In this document: piece after piece, positions 12,520 to 47,738 of the stretch
How the letters are laid out: each line of letters starts with the position of its first letter
Position numbering within the stretch: position 1 is the stretch's first letter
DNA from: Nitrospirota bacterium
GTDB taxonomy: Bacteria > JACPQY01
Length of the DNA: 59,716 bases
Direction: 5' to 3'
NCBI GenBank assembly: GCA_016180645.1
Contig: JACPAV010000022.1
Location: 1 to 59,716, forward strand
Notes under the pieces: generated by a model
The model's database searches: none
What the model was told of the DNA's origin: nothing
What the model saw: the letters and a program-made list of their open reading frames with translations, nothing else
Translations under genes and position numbers: made by a program

Positions 12520-14007
12520 CTAGGACAGCAATCCGTTCAGCCGGTCCTGAATGACCGCGTCAGCGCACTCAAGCCCGCTCTGCGCGGCGAGTTCCGTGCC
12601 GATGCCGCGACCGCCCGCGCCGTCGCCGCAGAAATAGAGTCCTCGGATCGGTGTCCGCACGGGTGGTCGGCGCTTCCCAACCTGACCCACTCTCTGACCT
12701 GTACTGATCGCCGGGCCGTACTGCTTGCCAATCCATCGCTCGATGAACCGAACGTCGAACGTCTGGACCCACTCGATGTGCGGCACGATCTCCGGCGCCA
12801 TCGCCTTGATCGTCTCCACCATGTTGGCCGTCCATTCCTTCGGACCGTTCTCCAGTGTCACGTCCGTGGTCGGCGCCACCGCACACGCCGTAATGAGTTG
12901 CTTGCCTTTCGGTCCCAGCTGCGGGTCGAAGTTGGTCGGGATCGGAGCGTATATGGGCGTGGCCGCAGGCAACTGCCCTTTCTGCACCTGGCCGTACACA
13001 CGTTTGAGATCGTCCACCTTCATCGTGCGAATCGTCATCTCGTCGCTCCATCCTCCAATCAGACACCCGGCCTTCAACACGGGACGGTCCAGGATGATCT
13101 TGGCCTGCACGGCGATGGAGCTCCCTCGAATCTCCTTTACACGACGAACGTACTCACGTGGAAAATGTTTCTCTCCCGCCAGGCCGAGAACGCTCGTCCG
13201 CAGGCTTGAAGTGCTGATCACGATGGGCGCGCAGAAGTCCCGACCGTCCCGTGCGACGACTCCCGTGACCCGGCCGTGAGAATTCAGCCTGATCCTCTCA
13301 ACCCCGCAGTGAGTCACGACTTCAGCCCCGTGTCCCCTCGCCGCTTCCAGGAGCGCGCGGGGAACCGCCACCGATCCGCCGATCGGATAGCTGAGGCGGT
13401 TGTCCCACACCATCCGCTGAAAGCACCAGATCCCTTCTCCCGCGCTGACCTCTTCCAGCGGGAGCACAAAATAGAGCCCCAATAGGAAACCGAAGGCGGC
13501 GACGAGGCGCGGATCGCGCGTGTAGCGCAGGACGAAATCCATCATCGGTACATCGTCCAAAGCCTCGATCTCGTGCGGCCGCAGCCGCATCACGGCGGTG
13601 AAGAAGCGAACGATCGGCGGCACTTCCCACGGTTTCAGCCTCACCTGATACGCCGCGCGGAGGAGCGCCGCGGGCCAGCGGTGGGGGTCCCTGGGAAACG
13701 TGAGATCCAGCCCCGGCCCACGGGCCAGGACCATTTCCCGCGTTTGGACGAACCGAACCCTCTTCTTCACACCGGCGCGGCGCTGAGCCTCGCCCAACGG
13801 ACCCCGATGGCCGCGGGAAAAGAGATGGGTACCGATATCGATGTGAAACCCCCGCTTCTCATAGTAGCTGCAACTGCCGCCGATCCGCGGATTTTTCTCA
13901 AGGATCAATACACGGAGGCCGGCCGCCGCGAGCGCCGATCCGACGGCGCAACCGCCGAGGCCCGTCCCAATGACGATGGCATCGTACTTCGAAGGGCTGT
14001 TTCTCAT
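12520..14007 (-). CDS. FAD-dependent phytoene-desaturase/CrtI-type oxidoreductase (third of three)
   Basis: 495 aa. N-terminal dinucleotide-binding fold DAIVIGTGLGGCAVGSALAA then LILEKNPRIGGSC (GxGxxG plus the downstream E and GG). The C-terminal FAD motif RGLYFCGDGAGGRGIGTELAAQSG is typical of CrtI, CRTISO and retinol-saturase-like enzymes. Substrate unknown: an isoprenoid or other polyene is only a guess from family. The start ATG 14007 overlaps the stop of the preceding gene by 4 nt (ATGA), so the longer in-frame extension to 14499 is not used. It looks paralogous to the adjacent 14004-15500 gene, sharing the GRGIGT C-terminal block. Confidence 0.83.
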   Translation of the reverse strand: MRNSPSKYDAIVIGTGLGGCAVGSALAAAGLRVLILEKNPRIGGSCSYYEKRGFHIDIGTHLFSRGHRGPLGEAQRRAGVKKRVRFVQTREMVLARGPGLDLTFPRDPHRWPAALLRAAYQVRLKPWEVPPIVRFFTAVMRLRPHEIEALDDVPMMDFVLRYTRDPRLVAAFGFLLGLYFVLPLEEVSAGEGIWCFQRMVWDNRLSYPIGGSVAVPRALLEAARGHGAEVVTHCGVERIRLNSHGRVTGVVARDGRDFCAPIVISTSSLRTSVLGLAGEKHFPREYVRRVKEIRGSSIAVQAKIILDRPVLKAGCLIGGWSDEMTIRTMKVDDLKRVYGQVQKGQLPAATPIYAPIPTNFDPQLGPKGKQLITACAVAPTTDVTLENGPKEWTANMVETIKAMAPEIVPHIEWVQTFDVRFIERWIGKQYGPAISTGQRVGQVGKRRPPVRTPIRGLYFCGDGAGGRGIGTELAAQSGLECADAVIQDRLNGLLS

Positions 14008-15500
14008 CGAGGCCCGAGATCCTTGAGGATCATTTCCGCCACGTTGAATCCGGAATCCACCGCCTGCGTCGTCCCAATCCCGCGGCCACCCGCATCGCAC
14101 CCTACAAAATAAAGCCCCTTGAGCGGCGATCGCGGATTCGGCTTGGAGCGCCCGCACTGCCCGATGATCTGCCCCAGCCCGATGCACTCGCCCCCCTGAC
14201 CGGCGAGGACCGCATCGCGCGTCGTGGCCGAAACCTGAGCTGCGCCAAAACTCTGACTGCGGATGACATGCTTTCTCAGATGCGGCCACAAACGGTCCGC
14301 CATCTCCTCCGCCTTGGCGATGGCCACCCGGCTCATCGGTGATCGGGGATCCGGGGACGATAGAACTCCAATCAAGGCCACTTGACGTATTCGCCCTGAC
14401 ACAAGCGACGGATCGTAAAGCGAAGGGACCGTTACGAACAGAAGCGGATTCCTCGGCCAGTTTCCCCGTTCCGCTTCCGCAAACCGATTCGTATCCCACC
14501 CACTCTCGGGCGAGAACACCACCGTCATGGGAACTTTGAATACCGGCGTGTCAAGATCATACCGGATCCCCACAAACGCCCATGAAGGAGCAAGCTCCTT
14601 GATCCGCTCAACGTAATCCTCCAGGAAGGCCGGCTCGCCGGCAAGCCGGAGCACGGTGGGCTGGATGCCCGCGTTGGATACCACCACGGGCGCGTGGAAC
14701 TCACCGCCGCTGGTGGACACCCCGTACGCCGCGCCATCCCGCCTCAGGATGCGCTCGACCCGCGTCCCCCCCAACCACTGCCCTTCCCGGGCCTGGATAA
14801 ACCGCGCCGCCTCTTCCGCAATCACTCCGTATCCTCCGCGGTGATAACGGCCCGCCCCGCCCTTTGAAATCTCACGCAGCGTCCGAATCGCCTCCGAGGC
14901 CGGCAGCCGATCCACCGGAACCACGAAAAACAAGTTCATCAGGCTCGCCATCCAGTCGAAGATCGGTTGCGGAAGGCGGAAGCGTTTCATCCAATCCAGC
15001 ATCGGAACTCCATCGAAACGATCCAACATGATCGGCGGCATCGCGCTCGAAACGGCGTTCATGGCCATTATTCCGCCGAGTTGCCACGCGCGAACCCCCA
15101 GCCTCGAAGCCATCCGGATCATCTCCAAAGGGTTGCGGATGGGCCGGGCGGGAACGACCAAACTCCGCCGTTTCCCGTCAGGCGCCAAATACACAAACTC
15201 CGCCGCCGGATCGGGGGCGAGGAGAACGGACGGGTCCAAGCCGATCAAGCTCAGGAGATCATGAAAACGCGAATGGAGAGAGGGTCCGCCCGCAATCGGC
15301 CAAAGCTCGTGGACAACACCTCCGCGAACAACCCGCATGGCTTTTCCACCCGGCCTGGAGTTCTTCTCGATCACGAGGACACGCCTTCCCCGGCTTGCCA
15401 GAACAGCCCCCACCGTCACACCGCCATAGCCCGCGCCGATGACAATGGCATCGAAACGATGCGGTCCGGAGCCAGGCTCAAGCCGCAAGCGAGCGGTCAT
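14004..15500 (-). CDS. FAD-dependent phytoene-desaturase/CrtI-type oxidoreductase (second of three)
   Basis: 498 aa. N-terminal FDAIVIGAGYGGVTVGAVLA and VLVIEKNSRPGG form the FAD-binding Rossmann fold. The C-terminus LKGLYFVGCDAGGRGIGTTQAVDSG is the second FAD contact. Family members desaturate, isomerise or saturate polyenes, usually at the membrane. The start ATG 15500 shares one base with the stop of the upstream gene (TGATG), and its own stop overlaps the next gene's start, so the three genes are translationally coupled. The middle region (QLGGIMAMNAVSSAMPPIMLD) is hydrophobic and may bind the lipid substrate. No substrate is established. Confidence 0.84.
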   Translation of the reverse strand: MTARLRLEPGSGPHRFDAIVIGAGYGGVTVGAVLASRGRRVLVIEKNSRPGGKAMRVVRGGVVHELWPIAGGPSLHSRFHDLLSLIGLDPSVLLAPDPAAEFVYLAPDGKRRSLVVPARPIRNPLEMIRMASRLGVRAWQLGGIMAMNAVSSAMPPIMLDRFDGVPMLDWMKRFRLPQPIFDWMASLMNLFFVVPVDRLPASEAIRTLREISKGGAGRYHRGGYGVIAEEAARFIQAREGQWLGGTRVERILRRDGAAYGVSTSGGEFHAPVVVSNAGIQPTVLRLAGEPAFLEDYVERIKELAPSWAFVGIRYDLDTPVFKVPMTVVFSPESGWDTNRFAEAERGNWPRNPLLFVTVPSLYDPSLVSGRIRQVALIGVLSSPDPRSPMSRVAIAKAEEMADRLWPHLRKHVIRSQSFGAAQVSATTRDAVLAGQGGECIGLGQIIGQCGRSKPNPRSPLKGLYFVGCDAGGRGIGTTQAVDSGFNVAEMILKDLGPR

Positions 15501-17026
15501 CAGTTCAGAAAAGCTTGCCTCTTGTTGTCGCGCGATCTGAGCAGCGAGGCCACCGGATCGACGGGGAGAAGTCGGCCCATTCGGTTGATCATCCGTGCCA
15601 CACCCTGCAATTCGCGTTGATCGAGGTCCACTGAAAGCTTCTCCGGTCTCCCGATCTCCTTCAGGACGGCCTCCGCCGCCAGCCAGCCCGTTCGGCACGC
15701 GTTTTCCATGCACGAAGGCAGTCCCGTCTGGATCCAGTCGCCCGCGAGGAAGAGATTTCGTACCGGCGAGACGGTTCCCGGCCGCCGCTGCTCCATGCCG
15801 GGGTACGGGCAGTGGATGGCCATCGGAATGTGGTTGACCACCGAATGGAGAACCTTCGCCTGGGCCGCCTCGGGGAGATACTCGGCCAGCTCGCTCACCG
15901 CCTCCGCCACGATCTCCTCATCCGACATGTGCATCGCGCGGTCGCAATAAATACAGTTCGTCATGATCACGGAATTACGCTCCTCCCAGCCTCGGTTGAT
16001 GTTGGACATGTCGTAGAAATCGCAGTTGAGATCGTTCGGGTTGAAGGCGCGCGCCCAGAACTTTCTCTTCGTCAGCTTCCGGTCGAACCAGATGTACGTG
16101 CTGTAGTACGGGGAAGCGTGGAAATGGACCAGCTCATGGAAGGTCCTGCGCGAACGAATCCACTCGCGAGGCGAGACCTGCCGAAGAGCCATCGGGGTAA
16201 GGGCTGAAATGATGTACTGGGCCCGAATCTGCCGCCCATCCTCGAGAAGCGCGCCCGTGGCCGAGGAGGCCGTTCCCGTGAAAGCCTTCACTTCGGCTCC
16301 CTTGAGAACCCGGATGCCCGACTTTTTCATGAGCGACTCCGACTGCGGGACATAGAGATCGCTCAGCCCGGTGTCGGCGAATCCGATGTCGAGGTCCGCT
16401 ACACCGATCAGCCCGCAGTAGAAGCGGAGGAGAGCGCCCGCGGAGCAGAGATCGATCGGAACGTTCATGATCGCCATGCACGCGAAGGACCAGAACCGTT
16501 GGATGGCGTACTCCGAAACGCCGAAGCTGCGGAGAAAGGCAGAGGCGTTGATATTGTCGAGCTTCCGCACGTCGTCCTCCTGGAGATGGAGAGCGTAGAG
16601 CGAAACGGGAACCATCGTCATCACGTCGGACATCGGCATCGACTTGTCCGCGAGGAGACTCCATGTGAAATGGAATGGCGCGGGGAGGCGTCGGTCGGCG
16701 ACCATGCTGATCTCCTTCCGACCATCCACCATCGTGATGAAATGCCCCGGCTCCTGCCAGACCACGCGGTCACGCGTTCCGCACAGATCCATCATCCGAA
16801 ACATGTTGGGATACTTGTTCATGAAGATGTGCGGGCCGATGTGGACAGGGTCGCCCGTCTTCTTGTCGTTCCAACTGCGAGCGCGACCCCCGAGATGCGG
16901 CTCCTTCTCGACGAGGGTGATCTTGAGACCCGAATTCTTGAGCCCAAGAGCTGCCGTGATCCCGGCAAGCCCGCCGCCGACGATGAGGACATCCGTGCCT
17001 GTCGGCCGGCTGTTTTCCTTCGCCAT
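15500..17026 (-). CDS. FAD-dependent desaturase, HpnE/zeta-carotene-desaturase-like (first of three)
   Basis: 508 aa. Begins MAKENSRPTGTDVLIVGGGLAG with an intact GxGxxG and LVEKEPHLGGRARSW. The C-terminal NLFLAGDWIQTGLPSCMENA resembles HpnE (hydroxysqualene dehydroxylase) and plant-type phytoene or zeta-carotene desaturases more than CrtI. It therefore belongs to a different subfamily from its two downstream neighbours. The start is backed by an AAGGAGG site just upstream. It opens the coupled three-gene set. The upstream spacer holds TTGACTTGGGTTTGA, a half-match to the FNR-type dyads near 2407 and 4399. Confidence 0.83.
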   Translation of the reverse strand: MAKENSRPTGTDVLIVGGGLAGITAALGLKNSGLKITLVEKEPHLGGRARSWNDKKTGDPVHIGPHIFMNKYPNMFRMMDLCGTRDRVVWQEPGHFITMVDGRKEISMVADRRLPAPFHFTWSLLADKSMPMSDVMTMVPVSLYALHLQEDDVRKLDNINASAFLRSFGVSEYAIQRFWSFACMAIMNVPIDLCSAGALLRFYCGLIGVADLDIGFADTGLSDLYVPQSESLMKKSGIRVLKGAEVKAFTGTASSATGALLEDGRQIRAQYIISALTPMALRQVSPREWIRSRRTFHELVHFHASPYYSTYIWFDRKLTKRKFWARAFNPNDLNCDFYDMSNINRGWEERNSVIMTNCIYCDRAMHMSDEEIVAEAVSELAEYLPEAAQAKVLHSVVNHIPMAIHCPYPGMEQRRPGTVSPVRNLFLAGDWIQTGLPSCMENACRTGWLAAEAVLKEIGRPEKLSVDLDQRELQGVARMINRMGRLLPVDPVASLLRSRDNKRQAFLN

Positions 17027-17199
17027 GTTTACCTCCTTGCCAATATGCGGAGCTTCAAATCATGCTGTCCAACTGTTTAGTTAACTCATTCTCAAACCCA
17101 AGTCAAATGCATAGTCAAGGATAGCCCACATCAAACTCATGCGGAGAGCAACAGGCTACGCCTCCGCGCCACCGATGCCCCTCTCCGATGGACCGGGAA

Positions 17200-18909
17200 C
17201 TAGTGCCCGGCGAGGCCCGGTATGAGTCTTTCAATCAACTTCGGAACTTGGCTGCGATCTTTTGAGGACTGTCCCGTCGACCGTTTGCTCCTCCATGAAA
17301 CAAGTTTCACGATGCACCAGTATTCGAAATCGAAGAAGCCAAAAAACGTCGGGCTGGCGGTCCTGATCCCTTTCTTCCATCGCCACTCGATAATCATTTC
17401 GAAGGGCAGGATGAACAGCCGCCACCAACCGGGGAAATTCTGATGCGTCTTGTGGAACCGATTGTGATGGAAGCCGGCAACGAAATAGATGTTGTTGATC
17501 CACCTGGGGAGCTTGGGGTTGTAGGCGGCGGACATCTTCGTCCACTCCCCCATGGAATTCGGCAGGGGCCATCCGTTCTCTTTCGCGCGCTCGAACGCAA
17601 TCGTTCCCGGCAGCGGCATGAGCACGTAGACCGTCGCGCGGCTTCTTCCTCTCGGATGGAGGGCGCGAATTTCATCGGATACTCGCAGGGTGTCCATGAT
17701 CTGGGATGGAGTCTCGCCGGGATTCCCGATGATCCAGGTGTACACGCCCTCGATTCCATGCTTGGCCAGAAGCCTCGCCGCCACATAGTGGGCTTCAACC
17801 TTCTCGTTTTTTCGCATCGTCTTGAGGGTTTCGTCATTCCCCGATTCGGCGCCGATATGTATTCGCAGACAGCCCGTCTCGGCCAGTTTGGCGACCCGTT
17901 CCTCATTCTTGAGCTGATCGGAGCGGAGATGCAGATGGTACTTGACGCCTTTCCTCTTTAGATGCTCGGCGTATCGCCAATCCTTCAGGAACCAGGAGGA
18001 ATTTTCGTCTTCGAGTTCAATGAAATCGAACGACTGGACGTTGTAGATATCATCCAAATCCTTCTCCCATATCTCGTACGGAATGTACCGGTACACCGAC
18101 CTGGTTTTCCCGGTCTCCGGGTCCCACTGCGTGTATTGACCGCCAACCGAACAGAACTCGCATGAGGTGGGAGACCAGTTGCAGCCACGGGAACTTTGAA
18201 GGATGACTTCGTTTCGTCTTGCCGCCTCCCGAAACAGACGCTCTGTCTTCGGAGACATGACCGGCACGTACTCCTCCTTCAGGTTGAGCGCCAAACCCCT
18301 GCGATTCACCAGGATTCGGCCCCCTTCGTATTCATAGACCCCGTTCGGATCGTGAATCTCGATGATTTCCTTTTGCTGCCCGATGGGCCTCAATCGAAGT
18401 CCCGGCCTGTAGGAATCCTTGATTCCAAACCGTTCATCTTCCTCGGGTGATGGTTGATACCCCGCGCTTTCCCGTTTGTACGCGACGCCATCGATGTCTT
18501 TGTATCCCTTCCCGGCTTCGATGGCATGCAGAAGCTTTGGAAACCGCGCCTCCCCCTCTCCGATAACACAAAAGTCCACGTAGCTCTCTCGCATCGATTG
18601 GAGCGGTTGGAACGTGACGTGTACCCCTCCCCAGACAATGGGTTTCTCGGGAAACCTTTCCTTGCATCGGCCGGCGATCCGGATGGACTCACCGAGCTGA
18701 AATCCGGAGAGCGAGCTGAGGGCAACAACATCGGCCCTGCCCATGAGCTCCCACATCTGCTTCTCGCTGTCCAGGCGAGCATCCCAGAAATCCACCTCGT
18801 GACCGGCAATTTCCGCGGCGCGCCCCGGATAAATGATCGACAAAGCACAGTTCTTTTGGGGTGAGATCGGAGACGGCAATGGATAGATCATCGCCACTTT
18901 CAAGGACAT
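17200..18909 (-). CDS. B12-binding domain radical SAM protein, unusual CX6CX2C motif
   Basis: 569 aa. Residues of about 1-140 form a cobalamin-binding Rossmann domain (PQKNCALSIIYPGRAAEIAG, then IVWGGVHVTFQP). The radical SAM core has Cys243, Cys250 and Cys253 in SSRGCNWSPTSCEFCSVGG, a CX6CX2C spacing rather than CX3CX2C. Later motifs are ELEDENSSWF, LRIHIGAESGNDETL (GxSE-like strand) and YTWIIGNPGETPSQ. The start ATG 18909 follows AGGGAGG by 6 nt. Members methylate or rearrange unactivated carbons in lipids, tetrapyrroles or peptides; the substrate here is unknown. It lies between the desaturase trio and a lipoprotein on the same strand. Confidence 0.87.
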   Translation of the reverse strand: MSLKVAMIYPLPSPISPQKNCALSIIYPGRAAEIAGHEVDFWDARLDSEKQMWELMGRADVVALSSLSGFQLGESIRIAGRCKERFPEKPIVWGGVHVTFQPLQSMRESYVDFCVIGEGEARFPKLLHAIEAGKGYKDIDGVAYKRESAGYQPSPEEDERFGIKDSYRPGLRLRPIGQQKEIIEIHDPNGVYEYEGGRILVNRRGLALNLKEEYVPVMSPKTERLFREAARRNEVILQSSRGCNWSPTSCEFCSVGGQYTQWDPETGKTRSVYRYIPYEIWEKDLDDIYNVQSFDFIELEDENSSWFLKDWRYAEHLKRKGVKYHLHLRSDQLKNEERVAKLAETGCLRIHIGAESGNDETLKTMRKNEKVEAHYVAARLLAKHGIEGVYTWIIGNPGETPSQIMDTLRVSDEIRALHPRGRSRATVYVLMPLPGTIAFERAKENGWPLPNSMGEWTKMSAAYNPKLPRWINNIYFVAGFHHNRFHKTHQNFPGWWRLFILPFEMIIEWRWKKGIRTASPTFFGFFDFEYWCIVKLVSWRSKRSTGQSSKDRSQVPKLIERLIPGLAGH

Positions 18910-19036
18910 TCGAATCCTCCCTTTCTTGCGTGCTCGATTACCAACAGTGAATCTCCGCCATTCTACGTCTTTCGAGTCATGATGGAAAGTGAGGGTGCCC
19001 CGCGCGCCGCCTGGCCGGGCGGGACCCCGAAAGCCC

Positions 19037-20233
19037 CTACAACACCCTCCAGATTCCCCGCCCCGGAAGATAGCACTCCTCCTGAACAAATTCGTCTTTC
19101 GCCGTGATCAAGAATCCCTCGGGGACATTCTCCCAATGCCGCAGATCGGGTCTCACCGCACTTTCCAGAACTTCCGGCGCCTTGGACATGATCGCCGAAC
19201 CACCCTTCACGGAAACCTCGCATAGAGCGGCCGTTCCCCTGAGCTGGATATCATCCCCGCTGTCCAGCCCTACCGCTCCTTGGGCCGCACCCTGAAGGGA
19301 CGCAATCGCGAGCCCCAGCGCCACGCCGCTTCCGCATCCGCCTACCATCACCGCCGAGCCCGCTGCAACGGTGGTAATGCTGTACGCCATCCCTATCGGC
19401 AACCGGATCCAACTCTTGGCAAACATGAGGGGGTGGTACCGGTGCTGGTGCCGCATCGCAATCTTGTTGAACCAAGCGGTTGTCGAAATTCTCACGCCTG
19501 TCGGCGATGCACACTCGGTCACAAACTCCTTGTTCGTCCACACCTTGAGGTACCCTTGCTTCGGATGGATAAACTGGAGATCCCACAGGACCTCCGGGAA
19601 TTGCCCAAAGGCGAAGATCTTCCAATCGGATGTCGCATTCGGATGCAGGTCGATTTTCTCCACGCGCCCCGCGGCGTATGCACGAATGGTGTCCCCCACT
19701 TGATCGAACTCCCCCAGCCGGCTCCAGTCCACCCGCGCTTCCTCCGCATCCCCGTGTTTTTCCCACATGATCGCCTGGAGAAGAATGTTCACCGGATCTT
19801 CCCCTCGCGTGTAGAGAACCGCGCGCATCTCATCATTCATCCGGCGCAGCTCGACTTGTGAATCCTCGAACTCGTTCTTCTTCATGTAGCTCGCAGAAAT
19901 CAGAAAAGACAGATAGGCTCTCTCGTAGCTTTCGAGCACATAGCCGGTCGCCATGTCCTCCGGGATGAAAATACTCGCCACCTCTCTCGACCAGAAATGC
20001 GTCTTGTGCGTGTACTTCCGCAGGGCCTTGCTTCCGTATTTGATCACCAAGTCGTAACACTGCGATCGATAGGCCGTCGAGATGAGATTCAACGCTTGAA
20101 TCGGCCGGCGAAAGCTCAGACGGTCCTGAACATCCTCACATGAATAGACATCGGGGAGATCGTCGTCCGGCTCGACGTAGGGCACACAGCCGGCGAAGAG
20201 GAGCAAGAAGGCCCCCACACCGGAAAACCGCAT
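19037..20233 (-). CDS. Hypothetical lipoprotein (COG3014-like)
   Basis: 398 aa. The signal peptide ends in lipobox LLLFAGC, giving a mature N-terminal cysteine followed by VPYVEPDDD, compatible with outer-membrane retention. The body is helical (repeated Tyr/Leu-rich segments such as ESYERAYLSFLISASYMKKNEF). A glycine-rich segment near the C-terminus (AAGSAVMVGGCGSGVALGLAIA) may insert in the membrane. It resembles uncharacterised COG3014-type proteins; no function is known. Its ATG lies 3 nt after the DUF362 stop, indicating translational coupling. Confidence 0.62.
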   Translation of the reverse strand: MRFSGVGAFLLLFAGCVPYVEPDDDLPDVYSCEDVQDRLSFRRPIQALNLISTAYRSQCYDLVIKYGSKALRKYTHKTHFWSREVASIFIPEDMATGYVLESYERAYLSFLISASYMKKNEFEDSQVELRRMNDEMRAVLYTRGEDPVNILLQAIMWEKHGDAEEARVDWSRLGEFDQVGDTIRAYAAGRVEKIDLHPNATSDWKIFAFGQFPEVLWDLQFIHPKQGYLKVWTNKEFVTECASPTGVRISTTAWFNKIAMRHQHRYHPLMFAKSWIRLPIGMAYSITTVAAGSAVMVGGCGSGVALGLAIASLQGAAQGAVGLDSGDDIQLRGTAALCEVSVKGGSAIMSKAPEVLESAVRPDLRHWENVPEGFLITAKDEFVQEECYLPGRGIWRVL

Positions 20234-22194: not shown

Positions 22195-23088
22195 ATGGAC
22201 ATTCACCAGCTCCGAACATTTCTCGCGGTTCTGGAACACGCCAGCTTTTCCGGTGCGGCGGAAGCCATCCACCTGACGCAATCCACCGTCAGTTTCCACA
22301 TCAAGTCGCTGGAAACCGAGGTCGGAACGCGGTTGATTGATCGCCGCCGCGGAAAAGCGCGTCCCACCGCTGCCGGCCGCACCCTCCAGGAATACGCCGG
22401 CAAGATCGTCTCCCTCCGTGGGGAAGCCATGGCCCGAATGCAATCCGAGCAGCGCGGTGAAGTAGGAACCGTCACCGTCTCGGCCTCCACCATCCCGGGC
22501 GAATACCTTCTCCCCCCCTTTCTCGCCTCGTTCAACCGACTCCATCCAAAGGTCCAAATCGACCTCCGGATTTCGGATTCTCAGCAGGCCCTCCAGGAAC
22601 TCCTCGGCGAGAAATGTGATGTCGCCCTGCTTGGATCGAGGCCGCCGGCCGCCCGGGTGACCTCCGAGCCCTTCGCCCCGGATGACCTCATCCTCGTTGC
22701 GCCTGCTCCCAACCCGTTCACCCCCTGGCCCCGCGTCACCCATGCCGAACTCATGCACGTTCCGCTGATTCTTCGGGAAACCGGCTCCGGAACTCAACGA
22801 GCCACCCTCGAATTCTTCAGGAAGGCTCATCTCGACCCGGGCCGATTCACCCACGCGCTCCGCGTGGGCAGCACCCAGGCCGCCAGGCAGAGCGTGATCG
22901 CGGGCGCCGGCATGACGTTCATTTCGCGATGCGCCGTAGAGACCGACCTACGGGCCGGCGTTCTCACTCGCATCGCGTGTCCCAGGACCCCCATCCGGCG
23001 GCACATCTTCCTCGCCCGGTTGAAGAACGCGACTCTGTCTCTGCCGGCCCGGGCACTCATCGATTTCCTCCGATCACACATTCGATAG
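22195..23088 (+). CDS. LysR-family transcription regulator
   Basis: 297 aa. The winged HTH at the N-terminus (MDIHQLRTFLAVLEHASFSGAAEAIHLTQSTVSFHIKSLE) is classical. The effector domain (about 90-295) has the periplasmic-binding fold (VTVSASTIPGEYLLPPFLASFNRLHPKVQIDLRI). It is closest in feel to the CysB/CysL-like group that includes selenium-associated regulators; this is only an impression. Its effector and targets are unknown. Candidates are the upstream membrane protein and the downstream transglutaminase. Confidence 0.88.
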   Translation: MDIHQLRTFLAVLEHASFSGAAEAIHLTQSTVSFHIKSLETEVGTRLIDRRRGKARPTAAGRTLQEYAGKIVSLRGEAMARMQSEQRGEVGTVTVSASTIPGEYLLPPFLASFNRLHPKVQIDLRISDSQQALQELLGEKCDVALLGSRPPAARVTSEPFAPDDLILVAPAPNPFTPWPRVTHAELMHVPLILRETGSGTQRATLEFFRKAHLDPGRFTHALRVGSTQAARQSVIAGAGMTFISRCAVETDLRAGVLTRIACPRTPIRRHIFLARLKNATLSLPARALIDFLRSHIR

Positions 23089-23154: not shown

Positions 23155-24195
23155 ATGTCTACTCGATGGACGACCCCCCGCCCCTGGACCCGCCCTTCGG
23201 GGGCTGGATGGCGGGTTGGGCTTGGGTTCCTCGCGGCCTTTTCCTTTGCGGCCGCGTCTGCCCGGGAGCCGGAAATCGAAACGCGCTTGGCCCCCCGGTC
23301 GCGCACATTCGAATTCCGTTACGAGGTCACCCTTCCCGCGCCGGCGGCAGGCACGGCCAAGCTGGAGGCATGGTTGCCTCTTCCCATGGAGGACGATTTC
23401 CAGAAGGTTGAGAAAATCCGAATCGAGGGGGCGGCGGCCGTCGTCGGACGCGACCCCAAGTACGGCAATTCCATGGCCTATATCCGTTTCGATTCAAAGA
23501 ACGGCGCCGCATCCCCCGTCCAAGTCACCCTAACCGCCGACATCACCCGCCTCGAACAAAGGCCCCGTCGAGCCGAGCAAGATGGGGCCGGGCCGACCGC
23601 GGTTCCTGCGCTCTTTTTGCAACCTTCGGAAAAGATGGTTCTGACCGATCCCATCCGAGCCCTGGCGCGCAAGGTGACGCGAGGGAAGGCGTCGGACCTC
23701 GAAAAAGTGCGGGCGCTGTACGAATACGTCGCCGCCTTCATGCGATACGACAAGTCCGGCAAGGGCTGGGGCGAAGGCGATGTAAGATTCTGCCTCCGGG
23801 AAGCGCGCGGAAACTGCTCCGATTTCCATTCCCTCTTCGGTTCCCTCGCCCTAGCCCTCGGGATCCCCGTCCGATTCTCCATCGGCTTCCCCCTGCCGCC
23901 GGACAAACCGGAAGGCGTCATCGGCGGCTACCATTGCTGGGCCGAGGCCTACGTCGCCGGGACGGGCTGGCTTCCGGTGGACATCTCGGAGGCGGACAAA
24001 CATCCGGAGAAACACGATTACTACTTCGGGGCACTGGACGAAAACCGGGTCAGATTCTCCGAAGGACGCGACATTCCCCTCGAACCACCTCCGGCCTCGG
24101 CCAAGGCGCTGAACTTCTTCATCTATCCCCACGTGGAGGCGGACGGCCGGCCGGTGAAGGACGTCACCACGCGGTTCTCCTTCCGGAATCTCTAG
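23155..24195 (+). CDS. Secreted transglutaminase-like cysteine protease-fold protein
   Basis: 346 aa. The hydrophobic stretch VGLGFLAAFSFAAASA (about residues 21-36) acts as signal peptide or anchor. The C-terminal domain contains the papain-like triad of bacterial transglutaminase-core proteins: Cys221 in RGNCSDFHSLF, His260 in GGYHCWAEAY and Asp276 in LPVDISEA. The N-terminal ~150 residues form a beta-rich domain typical of this family (LEAWLPLPMEDDFQKVEKI). Probable activity is peptide-bond or isopeptide chemistry in the periplasm; substrate unknown. A selC-like tRNA starts 2 nt after the stop codon, so the two may share a transcript. Confidence 0.85.
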   Translation: MSTRWTTPRPWTRPSGAGWRVGLGFLAAFSFAAASAREPEIETRLAPRSRTFEFRYEVTLPAPAAGTAKLEAWLPLPMEDDFQKVEKIRIEGAAAVVGRDPKYGNSMAYIRFDSKNGAASPVQVTLTADITRLEQRPRRAEQDGAGPTAVPALFLQPSEKMVLTDPIRALARKVTRGKASDLEKVRALYEYVAAFMRYDKSGKGWGEGDVRFCLREARGNCSDFHSLFGSLALALGIPVRFSIGFPLPPDKPEGVIGGYHCWAEAYVAGTGWLPVDISEADKHPEKHDYYFGALDENRVRFSEGRDIPLEPPPASAKALNFFIYPHVEADGRPVKDVTTRFSFRNL

Positions 24196-24196
24196 C

Positions 24197-24288
24197 GACG
24201 GGGCCGTAGCTGGGCTACCTCCCGACTGCAAATCGGGCAGCGGTTGACTTCAACGTCGCCGGGTGGGTTCGACTCCCATTCCCCGTCT
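24197..24288 (+). tRNA. selC-like cysteine tRNA, anticodon GCA, long variable arm
   Basis: Folded by eye. Acceptor 24197-24203 (GACGGGG) pairs perfectly with 24281-24287 (CCCCGTC). The D stem is 24206-24209/24215-24218 (GTAG/CTAC) with an optional fifth pair, leaving only a 3-5 nt loop. The anticodon stem CCCGA/TCGGG (24221-24225/24233-24237) encloses CTGCAAA with anticodon GCA at 24228-24230. The 25-nt variable region (24238-24262) forms hairpin GTTG-ACTT-CAAC. T arm: GTGGG-TTCGACT-CCCAT, then one extra T at 24280. Discriminator T24288; no encoded CCA. The tiny D loop, long variable arm and extra base resemble tRNA-Sec. Anticodon GCA and U73 are CysRS identity elements. Minor selC-like tRNA-Cys species of this kind are described in deltaproteobacteria. 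Confidence 0.75.
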
Positions 24289-24513: not shown

Positions 24514-24795
24514 ATGAAACGGACACGATCGAAAACCGAAGGCGCGTGCTGCGCGCCGGGAACCGACATCACGGGTTGTTGCAAAGTGGAGGCCGTCGTC
24601 CCCATCGATGAGCGGGGACAAATGGTCCTCCCCAAAGAGGTCCGGGACAAAGCCGGGATCAAAGCGGGCGACAAGCTCGCCGTCATCAGTTGCGGGACCG
24701 GCAGTCCCATCGGCTGCCTCTGCGTCGTGCGGGCGGACGCCATGGGCGGGATCCTGAAATCCTTCCTCGGCCCCCTGCTCAAGGATCTGGTGTAG
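24514..24795 (+). CDS. Cys-rich AbrB/MazE-type DNA-binding protein, HgcAB-associated-like
   Basis: 93 aa. Residues 30-65 are the swapped-hairpin AbrB fold (VVPIDERGQMVLPKEVRDKA, then GIKAGDKLAVIS). The N-terminus has two Cys pairs (ACCAPG and GCCKVE) and the C-terminal part has Cys residues in SCGTG and IGCLCVV. This arrangement and a C-terminal LGPLLKDLV match the family annotated as HgcAB-associated proteins in mercury-methylation and metal-related neighbourhoods. hgcA and hgcB are not in this window. A metal- or metalloid-responsive regulator is a reasonable inference. Start fixed by GGGGAGG 6 nt upstream. It lies 2 nt before the methyltransferase gene and behind a 28-bp palindrome. Confidence 0.78.
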   Translation: MKRTRSKTEGACCAPGTDITGCCKVEAVVPIDERGQMVLPKEVRDKAGIKAGDKLAVISCGTGSPIGCLCVVRADAMGGILKSFLGPLLKDLV

Positions 24796-24797
24796 TC

Positions 24798-25493
24798 ATG
24801 ACGGCACCGGCCATGACGCACGGGATGATCGAGGCCCAAGCGCCGCCCCAGACCATCCGCAGGGTCTACAACTTCTGGAGCCTTTTCTACGGCACGCTGG
24901 CGGCCCCTCTCGAACGAAAGCCGCGGCTGCGAGGTCTGGACCTCGCAGCCGTCAAGCCCCGGGAAAAGATCCTCGAAGTCGCCGTGGGGCCCGGCGCCAC
25001 GTTCTTGGAGATCCTCAAGCGTGTCGATCAATCCACAGTTGTATCCGGCGTGGATCTCTCTCCTCGGATGCTTGACACCACTCGGCGGGCGGCCACACGC
25101 GCGGGCTACGACAACGTCGACCTGCAATTGGCCGACGCACGCCGGCTCCCCTTCGCCGACGGGTCGTTCGATGTCCTGTACAACAGCTACATGCTGGACT
25201 TGATCCCGCTGGATGAACTTGGGGGCATCCTTTCCGAGTTCAAGAGGGTGCTGCGGCCGGGCGGTCGAATGGTCCTGGTCAACATGAGCAAGTCGAGCGG
25301 AGAAGACCGGACCTTCTGGGAGCGCCTCTATCTTGCCGCCCCGAAGAGCTGGGTACCCTATCTGTTCGGTGGATGCCGTCCCGTTCTCATGGAGGGTCCG
25401 TTGAAACACACGGGATTCCGCGAGGTGAAACGTGAATTCATCGCGGGACCGCTTCCCTCGGAAATCGTAGGCGCAAGAAAACCGGCGTCTTGA
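24798..25493 (+). CDS. SAM-dependent class I methyltransferase
   Basis: 231 aa. SAM-binding motif I is ILEVAVGPGATFLEIL (about residues 55-70), followed by VSGVDLSPRMLD, a motif II block LADARRLPFADGSFDVLYNSY and the FKRVLRPGGRMVLVNMS strand. This is the UbiE/COQ5-type fold. The substrate is unknown: the partner is a Cys-rich AbrB-type regulator, so a metal or metalloid, or a quinone, may be methylated. Start ATG 24798 is 2 nt after the regulator's stop. Longer upstream frame openings overlap the regulator and are not used. Confidence 0.85.
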   Translation: MTAPAMTHGMIEAQAPPQTIRRVYNFWSLFYGTLAAPLERKPRLRGLDLAAVKPREKILEVAVGPGATFLEILKRVDQSTVVSGVDLSPRMLDTTRRAATRAGYDNVDLQLADARRLPFADGSFDVLYNSYMLDLIPLDELGGILSEFKRVLRPGGRMVLVNMSKSSGEDRTFWERLYLAAPKSWVPYLFGGCRPVLMEGPLKHTGFREVKREFIAGPLPSEIVGARKPAS

Positions 25494-46352: not shown

Positions 46353-47738
46353 ATGACGCGAGCCGAAGAGAATCCTCTCAGGACCCTTCCGCAGGTTGAG
46401 ACGCTAGCCAATGAAGTGCTGGAGTCCTACCCGGCGCTGCTGAAGAGCGTGGCCGTGGATGTGGCCCGTGAGGTGATCGAAGACGCGCGCACACAACTCC
46501 GAAAGGGGCGCAACGGGCTGACGGAAGGCGTATTGCTCCGTCGAGCCGGGGACCACGTTCGCAATCTTCTCTCCGGCGGGCTCCGGCCCGTGATCAACGC
46601 CACCGGAATCATCATTCATACGAATTTGGGCCGGGCGCCGCTTTCTGCAGAAGCCGTCCAGGAGGTCGTGCAGACCGCCGGGAGTTACTCGAACCTGGAA
46701 TTCGATCTCACGCGCGGTGAACGCGGGGAACGCATCAACGCGGTCCGCTCTCTACTGCATGCCGTGTGCGGAGGCGAGGATTCGCTTGTCGTCAACAACA
46801 ATGCGGCGGCCGTCCTCCTCGTTCTCGCAGCGCTGGCCAAAGGAAAAGAAGTCGTCGTCTCGCGCGGCGAACTCGTCGAGATCGGTGGCTCCTTCAGAGT
46901 TCCGGAAGTCATGGAGCAAAGCGGGGCAATCCTTCGTGAGGTCGGCACAACCAACAAGACCCGATTGAAAGACTACGAACAAGCAATCTCCCCGGCTACG
47001 GCCCTCATGATGAAAGCCCACCGGAGCAATTTTCAGGTGGTCGGCTTCACGGAGGAGACTTCGCTTGAGGAACTGGTCGAGCTGGGCCGCAAGAAGAATG
47101 TTCCGGTCTACATGGACCTCGGGAGTGGTGCAGTCCAGCCCTTCACCTTTCCGGGCGTCTCCCGGCGGGAACCGCTGGTCCGTGAGATCGTTTCACAGGG
47201 CACGGATCTCGTGAGCTTCAGCGGCGACAAGATGCTAGGCGGCCCCCAAGCCGGCATCATCATCGGCACGTCCAAGCTGATCCAACAAATCGCTCACCAC
47301 CCGCTGTACCGAGCGCTCCGACCCGACAAAATGACCCTCGCCGCATTGGCCGGCACCCTCCGGCTCTGCCTCACGGGCGGGGAGGCCGCATCCCAAATTC
47401 CTGTCACCGCCATGTTGAACGCTCCTTTGGACGAGCTCCGCCGTCACGCCGAGCAGGTCCGACGAACGGTTCTCAAATCGCGGAAAGACTTGGACTTGGA
47501 AATCGTCGAAGACACTTCCTATGCCGGCGGGGGCGCCCTCCCGATGGAGGCTCTCCCGACCCTTGCCTTGCACCTCAAGCACCCCTCGCTCTCGCCCAAT
47601 TCAATCTCCGATGCACTTCGGATATCCGATCCCCCCGTGATCGGCCGGATCTCGGATAACCGCTTTCTCCTCGACCTCCGGACCGTGTTCCCACGGGAGA
47701 TTCCCGATCTCGCGCGGGCAATCATCGCGCTTTCGTAG
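46353..47738 (+). CDS. selA: L-seryl-tRNA(Sec) selenium transferase
   Basis: 461 aa, full length for the family. PLP-dependent fold-type I enzyme that converts Ser-tRNA(Sec) to Sec-tRNA(Sec) with selenophosphate. Motifs: VINATGIIIHTNLGRAPLS near residue 80, NNNAAAVLLVLAALA, VVVSRGELVEIGGSFRVPEVM, TNKTRLKDYEQAI, and the PLP lysine Lys293 in SFSGDKMLGGPQAG. SelB, SelD and a canonical selC are not in the window, but a selC-like tRNA-Cys is encoded 22 kb away. glyQS follows by 14 nt, so the two tRNA-related genes may be co-transcribed. Confidence 0.96.
   Translation: MTRAEENPLRTLPQVETLANEVLESYPALLKSVAVDVAREVIEDARTQLRKGRNGLTEGVLLRRAGDHVRNLLSGGLRPVINATGIIIHTNLGRAPLSAEAVQEVVQTAGSYSNLEFDLTRGERGERINAVRSLLHAVCGGEDSLVVNNNAAAVLLVLAALAKGKEVVVSRGELVEIGGSFRVPEVMEQSGAILREVGTTNKTRLKDYEQAISPATALMMKAHRSNFQVVGFTEETSLEELVELGRKKNVPVYMDLGSGAVQPFTFPGVSRREPLVREIVSQGTDLVSFSGDKMLGGPQAGIIIGTSKLIQQIAHHPLYRALRPDKMTLAALAGTLRLCLTGGEAASQIPVTAMLNAPLDELRRHAEQVRRTVLKSRKDLDLEIVEDTSYAGGGALPMEALPTLALHLKHPSLSPNSISDALRISDPPVIGRISDNRFLLDLRTVFPREIPDLARAIIALS

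Follow-up and report, generated by a model that had tools for sequence, protein, structure and literature searches.

The window, i.e., the whole stretch of 59,716 nucleotides analyzed here, contains a single tRNA gene called by ARAGORN, a tRNA-Cys(gca) that follows a LysR-type regulator gene and a transglutaminase-like gene (Table 1). The first-pass annotation had described it as a selC-like tRNA-Cys, an identification borne out by ARAGORN, by the tRNA-Sec covariance model, by the predicted fold and by the homologues. The covariance search that the annotation had called for returned tRNA-Sec (RF01852) as the sole Rfam family matching the window (cmscan; 24197-24287, 47.2 bits versus a gathering score of 47), with an alignment spanning all 91 model positions. 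The gene was absent from the 99 matches to the general tRNA family retrieved at E ≤ 0.1 in a whole-genome search.

The predicted fold is a cloverleaf in which the acceptor stem is followed by two linker bases and then by the D stem. The long variable arm, tiny D loop, GCA anticodon and U73 first read from the letters all match it. The body is of the selenocysteine-tRNA type (long variable arm, 3-nt D loop, 13-nt acceptor/T strand), with a T stem identical to that of the tRNA-Sec from the same genome, and it carries the cysteine identity elements GCA and U73. The extra base reported between T stem and acceptor stem is indeed present, as a U on the 3' side. It corresponds to the eighth acceptor pair, here an unpaired C·U; since 16 of the 29 true tRNA-Sec examined have no pair at this position either, it is no sign of decay. 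CCA is likewise unencoded in 28 of the 45 chromosomal tRNAs of the genome, and the unpaired position and the missing CCA were rejected as decay signs on these counts. The locus encodes a real, intact tRNA.

Table 1. Genes of the tRNA locus, parts of the tRNA and selA, in window coordinates
Feature	Position	Strand	Evidence or remark
LysR_Se, selenium-metabolism-associated LysR regulator	22195..23088	+	NF040786, 259.9 bits (cut-off 250)
Transglutaminase-like protein	23155..24195	+	PF01841, 90.3 bits; ends 1 nt before the tRNA
selC*/ReC-type tRNA-Cys gene	24197..24288	+	ARAGORN, Rfam RF01852, fold, 22-sequence covariation
Acceptor stem GACGGGG/CCCCGUC		+	7 bp; fold
D arm GUAGC-UGG-GCUAC	24206..24218	+	5 bp, 3-nt loop; fold
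Anticodon GCA within loop CUGCAAA	24228..24230	+	ARAGORN
Long variable arm	24241..24261	+	7 bp, one bulge; fold
T arm GUGGG-UUCGACU-CCCAU plus extra U (24280)	24263..24280	+	5-bp T stem; 13-nt 3' branch
Discriminator U73	24288	+	CCA not encoded after U73
HgcC-like (HgcAB-associated) AbrB-domain protein	24514..24795	+	NF040962, 99.8 bits (cut-off 70)
SAM-dependent methyltransferase	24798..25493	+	PF13649
selA, L-seryl-tRNA(Sec) selenium transferase	46353..47738	+	TIGR00474, 556.3 bits; PF03841

The transglutaminase gene precedes the tRNA as first annotated, with one base (24196) rather than two between its stop codon and the tRNA. The order LysR_Se-transglutaminase-tRNA is also found in the Nitrospirota loci L136 and L255, in the latter followed by yedF, and blastp and tblastn identified transglutaminase homologues adjoining the tRNA in both of these and in L080 and L124. 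Comparative genomics led to the proposal that LysR_Se and YedF are selenium genes (PMC5322559). Lying behind LysR_Se, the window tRNA may well be subject to control by selenium. The source genome yielded no YedF, no SelB gene lies beside the window tRNA, and a search for integration at the tRNA revealed no repeat of 14 or more bases of the gene elsewhere in the window. The two downstream neighbors, the hgcC-like and methyltransferase genes, are linked to the tRNA by position only. The methyltransferase was searched as a longer frame (24690-25493), and its probable start at 24798 was taken from the ATG after the hgcC-like stop codon.

The source genome (65 contigs, 4.72 Mb, 97% complete) possesses both of the tRNAs that the annotation had proposed to look for: a tRNA-Sec(UCA) on contig C11 (73.3 bits) and a canonical tRNA-Cys(GCA) with encoded CCA on contig C19 (L037), which is not the tRNA-Cys of the tRNA array on contig C25. 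One full SelB (contig C42) and one CysRS (contig C26) are encoded outside the window, whereas SelA, as already noted in the first pass, is encoded within it. No second selB or cysS was found in the source genome. With the canonical tRNA-Cys, tRNA-Sec(UCA), SelB, CysRS and SelA, the genome therefore has all that a tRNA-ReC would need. The one same-phylum relative searched (G001, 84% complete) yielded neither a tRNA-Sec over the cut-off nor a match to the window tRNA pattern.

Homologues were collected from 84,980 genomes with a pattern consisting of the GCA anticodon loop, a long gap and a standard T arm, the matches listed being a sample. Long-armed GCA tRNAs with U73 account for 32 of the 80 loci among the matches listed, under record labels that include Nitrospirae, Bacillota, Ammonifex, Actinomycetes, Thermoleophilia, Chloroflexota, Proteobacteria and others. 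With further Nitrospirota genomes added, at least 49 selC*-type sequences were analyzed, the window's included. The 13-nt branch occurs in 47 of the 49, and the two acidobacterial exceptions with a 12-nt branch (L078 and L150) may be another kind of tRNA; U73 was scored in 48, the odd one (L078) being mis-registered and also bearing T there. The base changes are thus conserved beyond the source genome, a point on which the annotation had made its reading depend, since U73, GCA and the 13-nt branch occur together in about 46 homologues belonging to other phyla. All 29 tRNA-Sec examined, one from the source genome and 28 from other carriers, combine the 13-nt branch with G73.

Across 22 diverse homologues, standard pairs make up 96.8% of the 23-pair cloverleaf (95.5% in the D stem), and two-sided compensatory cells number 101, versus 31 in shuffles and 9-19 with the partner strand slid. 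Pairing and compensatory changes above these controls imply that the cloverleaf is not due to chance. Because the anticodon loop and the inner T stem are prescribed by the collecting pattern, the invariance of these columns, such as the anticodon loop in alignment A1, arises by construction; the compensatory changes counted lie in stems outside the pattern-fixed columns.

The class is already known, and the window tRNA is a further member in a little-sampled phylum. Members of this class, also called tRNA-ReC, have a Sec-like body and U73 together with GCA, and coexist with tRNA-Sec, SelB and a canonical tRNA-Cys, all of which were found here. The tRNA-ReC of Desulfotomaculum nigrificans likewise combines a tRNA-Sec-like body, GCA and cysteine identity elements with coexisting Sec machinery; the window tRNA differs in its phylum, and its charging and SelB delivery are presumed. 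The annotation had called the role of such tRNAs unsettled, a view now partly out of date. The passage on the Desulfotomaculum tRNA in a 2024 review (PMC11415595, citing Vargas-Rodriguez 2018) reports that it is delivered by SelB and not by EF-Tu, and that it reads selenocysteine UGA codons as cysteine. The annotation had also placed the class in deltaproteobacteria, where it has indeed been described; however, it extends to other phyla, both in the homologues found here and in PMC7609411, which lists Firmicutes, Thermodesulfobacteria, Nitrospirae and Proteobacteria.

In the passage of the same paper that describes Mukai 2017, selC* tRNA-Cys have U73, a GCA or UCA anticodon, an 8/4 structure and an A51a bulge called characteristic. 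The selC* tRNA-Cys of Syntrophobacterales and Desulfobacterales share with the window tRNA the Sec-like long arm, U73 and, in many cases, GCA, but the window tRNA is without the A51a bulge, A1:U72 and adjacent selB*/cysS*, and its 13-nt 3' branch is 7/5 plus one extra base rather than 8/4. The T stem of the window tRNA has 5 bp, and the bulge is missing from most of the other homologues as well. The window tRNA thus falls outside the narrow selC* description (8/4, A51a bulge) and is, in the broad sense, a tRNA-ReC-type or selC*-like minor cysteine tRNA. U73 instead of G73 sets it apart from tRNA-Sec. It has GCA and U73 in common with the canonical tRNA-Cys of the same genome, yet the short variable loop and 12-bp branch of the latter, and an identity of 51.5% between the two, separate it from canonical tRNA-Cys as well.

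Carriers of this tRNA are closely associated with selenium genes. SelB exceeded the family cut-off in 31 of the 32 carrier genomes searched and in 2 of 14 well-known genomes used as a comparison set. The tRNA is carried by 20 of 246 Nitrospirota genomes, after pattern matches in G144 and G149 were left out by eye as not tRNA-like. SelB is present in 19 of these 20 carriers versus 84 of 226 non-carriers (Fisher p = 3e-7), a co-occurrence statistic that shared ancestry inflates. In G172, the one carrier in which no SelB reached E ≤ 1e-85, a tRNA-Sec is nevertheless present. Of 27 Nitrospirota carrier genomes, 19 encode SelB, YedF, LysR_Se or transglutaminase, singly or in combination, no farther than ~4 kb from the tRNA (18 if those with transglutaminase alone are excluded), versus none of 36 chance-match control loci. 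Scores for one neighboring YedF (TIGR03527, 192.9 bits) and one neighboring LysR (NF040786, 296 bits) illustrate these assignments. A separate case is genome G024 (L133, L260, L242), which has SelB and in which the tRNA-Sec family matches nothing but the GCA tRNA at E ≤ 2e-9; either this genome is incomplete or the GCA tRNA stands alone in it.

In four Nitrospirota genomes (G005, twice, G010, G021 and G208), the tRNA is closely followed by an extra SelB gene. The five tRNA-linked SelBs group in a single clade (support 100/99) that excludes the main SelBs of the same genomes. The Nitrospira-labelled G005 (contigs C30, C62 and C142) has three SelB genes and two tRNA-SelB pairs. A selB* has been reported in two deltaproteobacterial groups (PMC7609411), and no statement on selB* in Nitrospirota was found in that paper. 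Upon alignment, no adapted residues were seen at the selenocysteine-pocket positions named in PMC5059743, in the tRNA-linked SelBs or in the SelB of the source genome; the pocket residues are kept, and thus neither SelB is visibly adapted to cysteine. These pairs represent a separate SelB lineage tied to the GCA tRNA and offer a way to explore whether sense codons, too, can be served by SelB.

We infer that the window tRNA probably acts as a SelB-delivered cysteine backup for selenoprotein synthesis. CysRS would charge it with cysteine by virtue of U73 and GCA, and its selenocysteine-tRNA shape, above all the 13-nt branch, would suit SelB rather than EF-Tu, as reported for the relative. SelB would then bring the Cys-tRNA to SECIS-marked codons, mainly selenocysteine UGA, by tolerated G34·A mispairing, so that under selenium shortage selenoproteins would be made with cysteine instead; expression from behind LysR_Se may be tuned to that condition. 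Against this reading, GCA is cognate to UGC/UGU and not to UGA, the tRNA has no A51a bulge and no SelB beside it, YedF was not found in the genome, and the SelB pocket is unadapted.

GCA and U73 would equally befit a spare tRNA-Cys delivered by EF-Tu to UGC/UGU, its shape being an evolutionary relic of tRNA-Sec, and the presence of a canonical tRNA-Cys means that the window tRNA could be redundant. We regard this main rival as unlikely, because the 13-nt branch, unfavorable for EF-Tu, is kept across phyla, nearly all carriers have SelB, and an ordinary tRNA-Cys would not need selenium-gene neighbors; moreover, the tested relative does not use EF-Tu, according to the passage that PMC11415595 devotes to it. 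Considerably less probable still is that the gene encodes a tRNA-Sec bearing a cysteine anticodon, which would receive serine, undergo conversion by SelA and insert selenocysteine at UGC/UGU codons with a SECIS. tRNA-Sec with GCA do exist (PMC11415595), and nine Burkholderiales loci among the matches listed (L073, L087, L100, L101, L105, L123, L125, L127 and L140) encode GCA tRNAs with Sec bodies beside selA and/or selB, several of them (e.g., L073, L087 and L100) in a selAB operon, which likely place selenocysteine at cysteine codons. However, these tRNAs have G73 where the window tRNA has U73, a CysRS determinant, and a full tRNA-Sec(UCA) coexists in the source genome.

Just as improbable is a mainly nontranslational role, as a regulatory RNA or SelB decoy tied to the LysR_Se operon. 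The tRNA does follow a coding gene at a distance of 1 nt, in what is probably a regulator operon, and an overlap of selC with selB has been proposed to tune SelB expression (PMC8124441), but U73 and all stems are conserved as in a working tRNA. Least credible of all is a decaying pseudogene or assembly artifact. Although the tRNA-Sec score is just over the cut-off, the eighth acceptor position is unpaired and CCA is not encoded, all canonical stems are intact, the latter two traits are common here, and the neighbors recur in other phyla.

The SelB-delivered cysteine backup would extend cysteine-for-selenocysteine recoding by mispairing to another phylum. The selenium operon context of the tRNA may be new and, if so, is the part worth following, as its recurring linkage to a selenium regulator and YedF suggests, in testable form, under which conditions such a tRNA is made. 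More tentatively, LysR_Se, the transglutaminase, tRNA-ReC and YedF might constitute an operon that responds to selenium and is conserved across phyla, with the tRNA serving to switch selenoprotein synthesis over from selenocysteine to cysteine; some Nitrospirota might use a dedicated SelB to deliver the GCA tRNA, perhaps to UGC/UGU codons marked by a SECIS as well.

Other features of the source genome are recorded here in their own right. Two dense tRNA arrays of 26 and 30 genes (C25:52000-67883 and C59:12000-25810), each with its own tRNA-Cys, were identified, one of which holds a predicted tRNA with anticodon TTA (reading UAA). The C59 array is near genes for a T4-type RNA ligase, a tyrosine recombinase, AbiEi/AbiEii and Fic, a context that suggests a mobile element or phage. 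Within the window, the reverse strand at 12520-19089 encodes a cluster of amine-oxidase/phytoene-desaturase-like proteins, in which 15500-17026 resembles HpnE (241 bits, below the cut-off of 283) and 17200-19089 resembles B12-binding radical SAM proteins.
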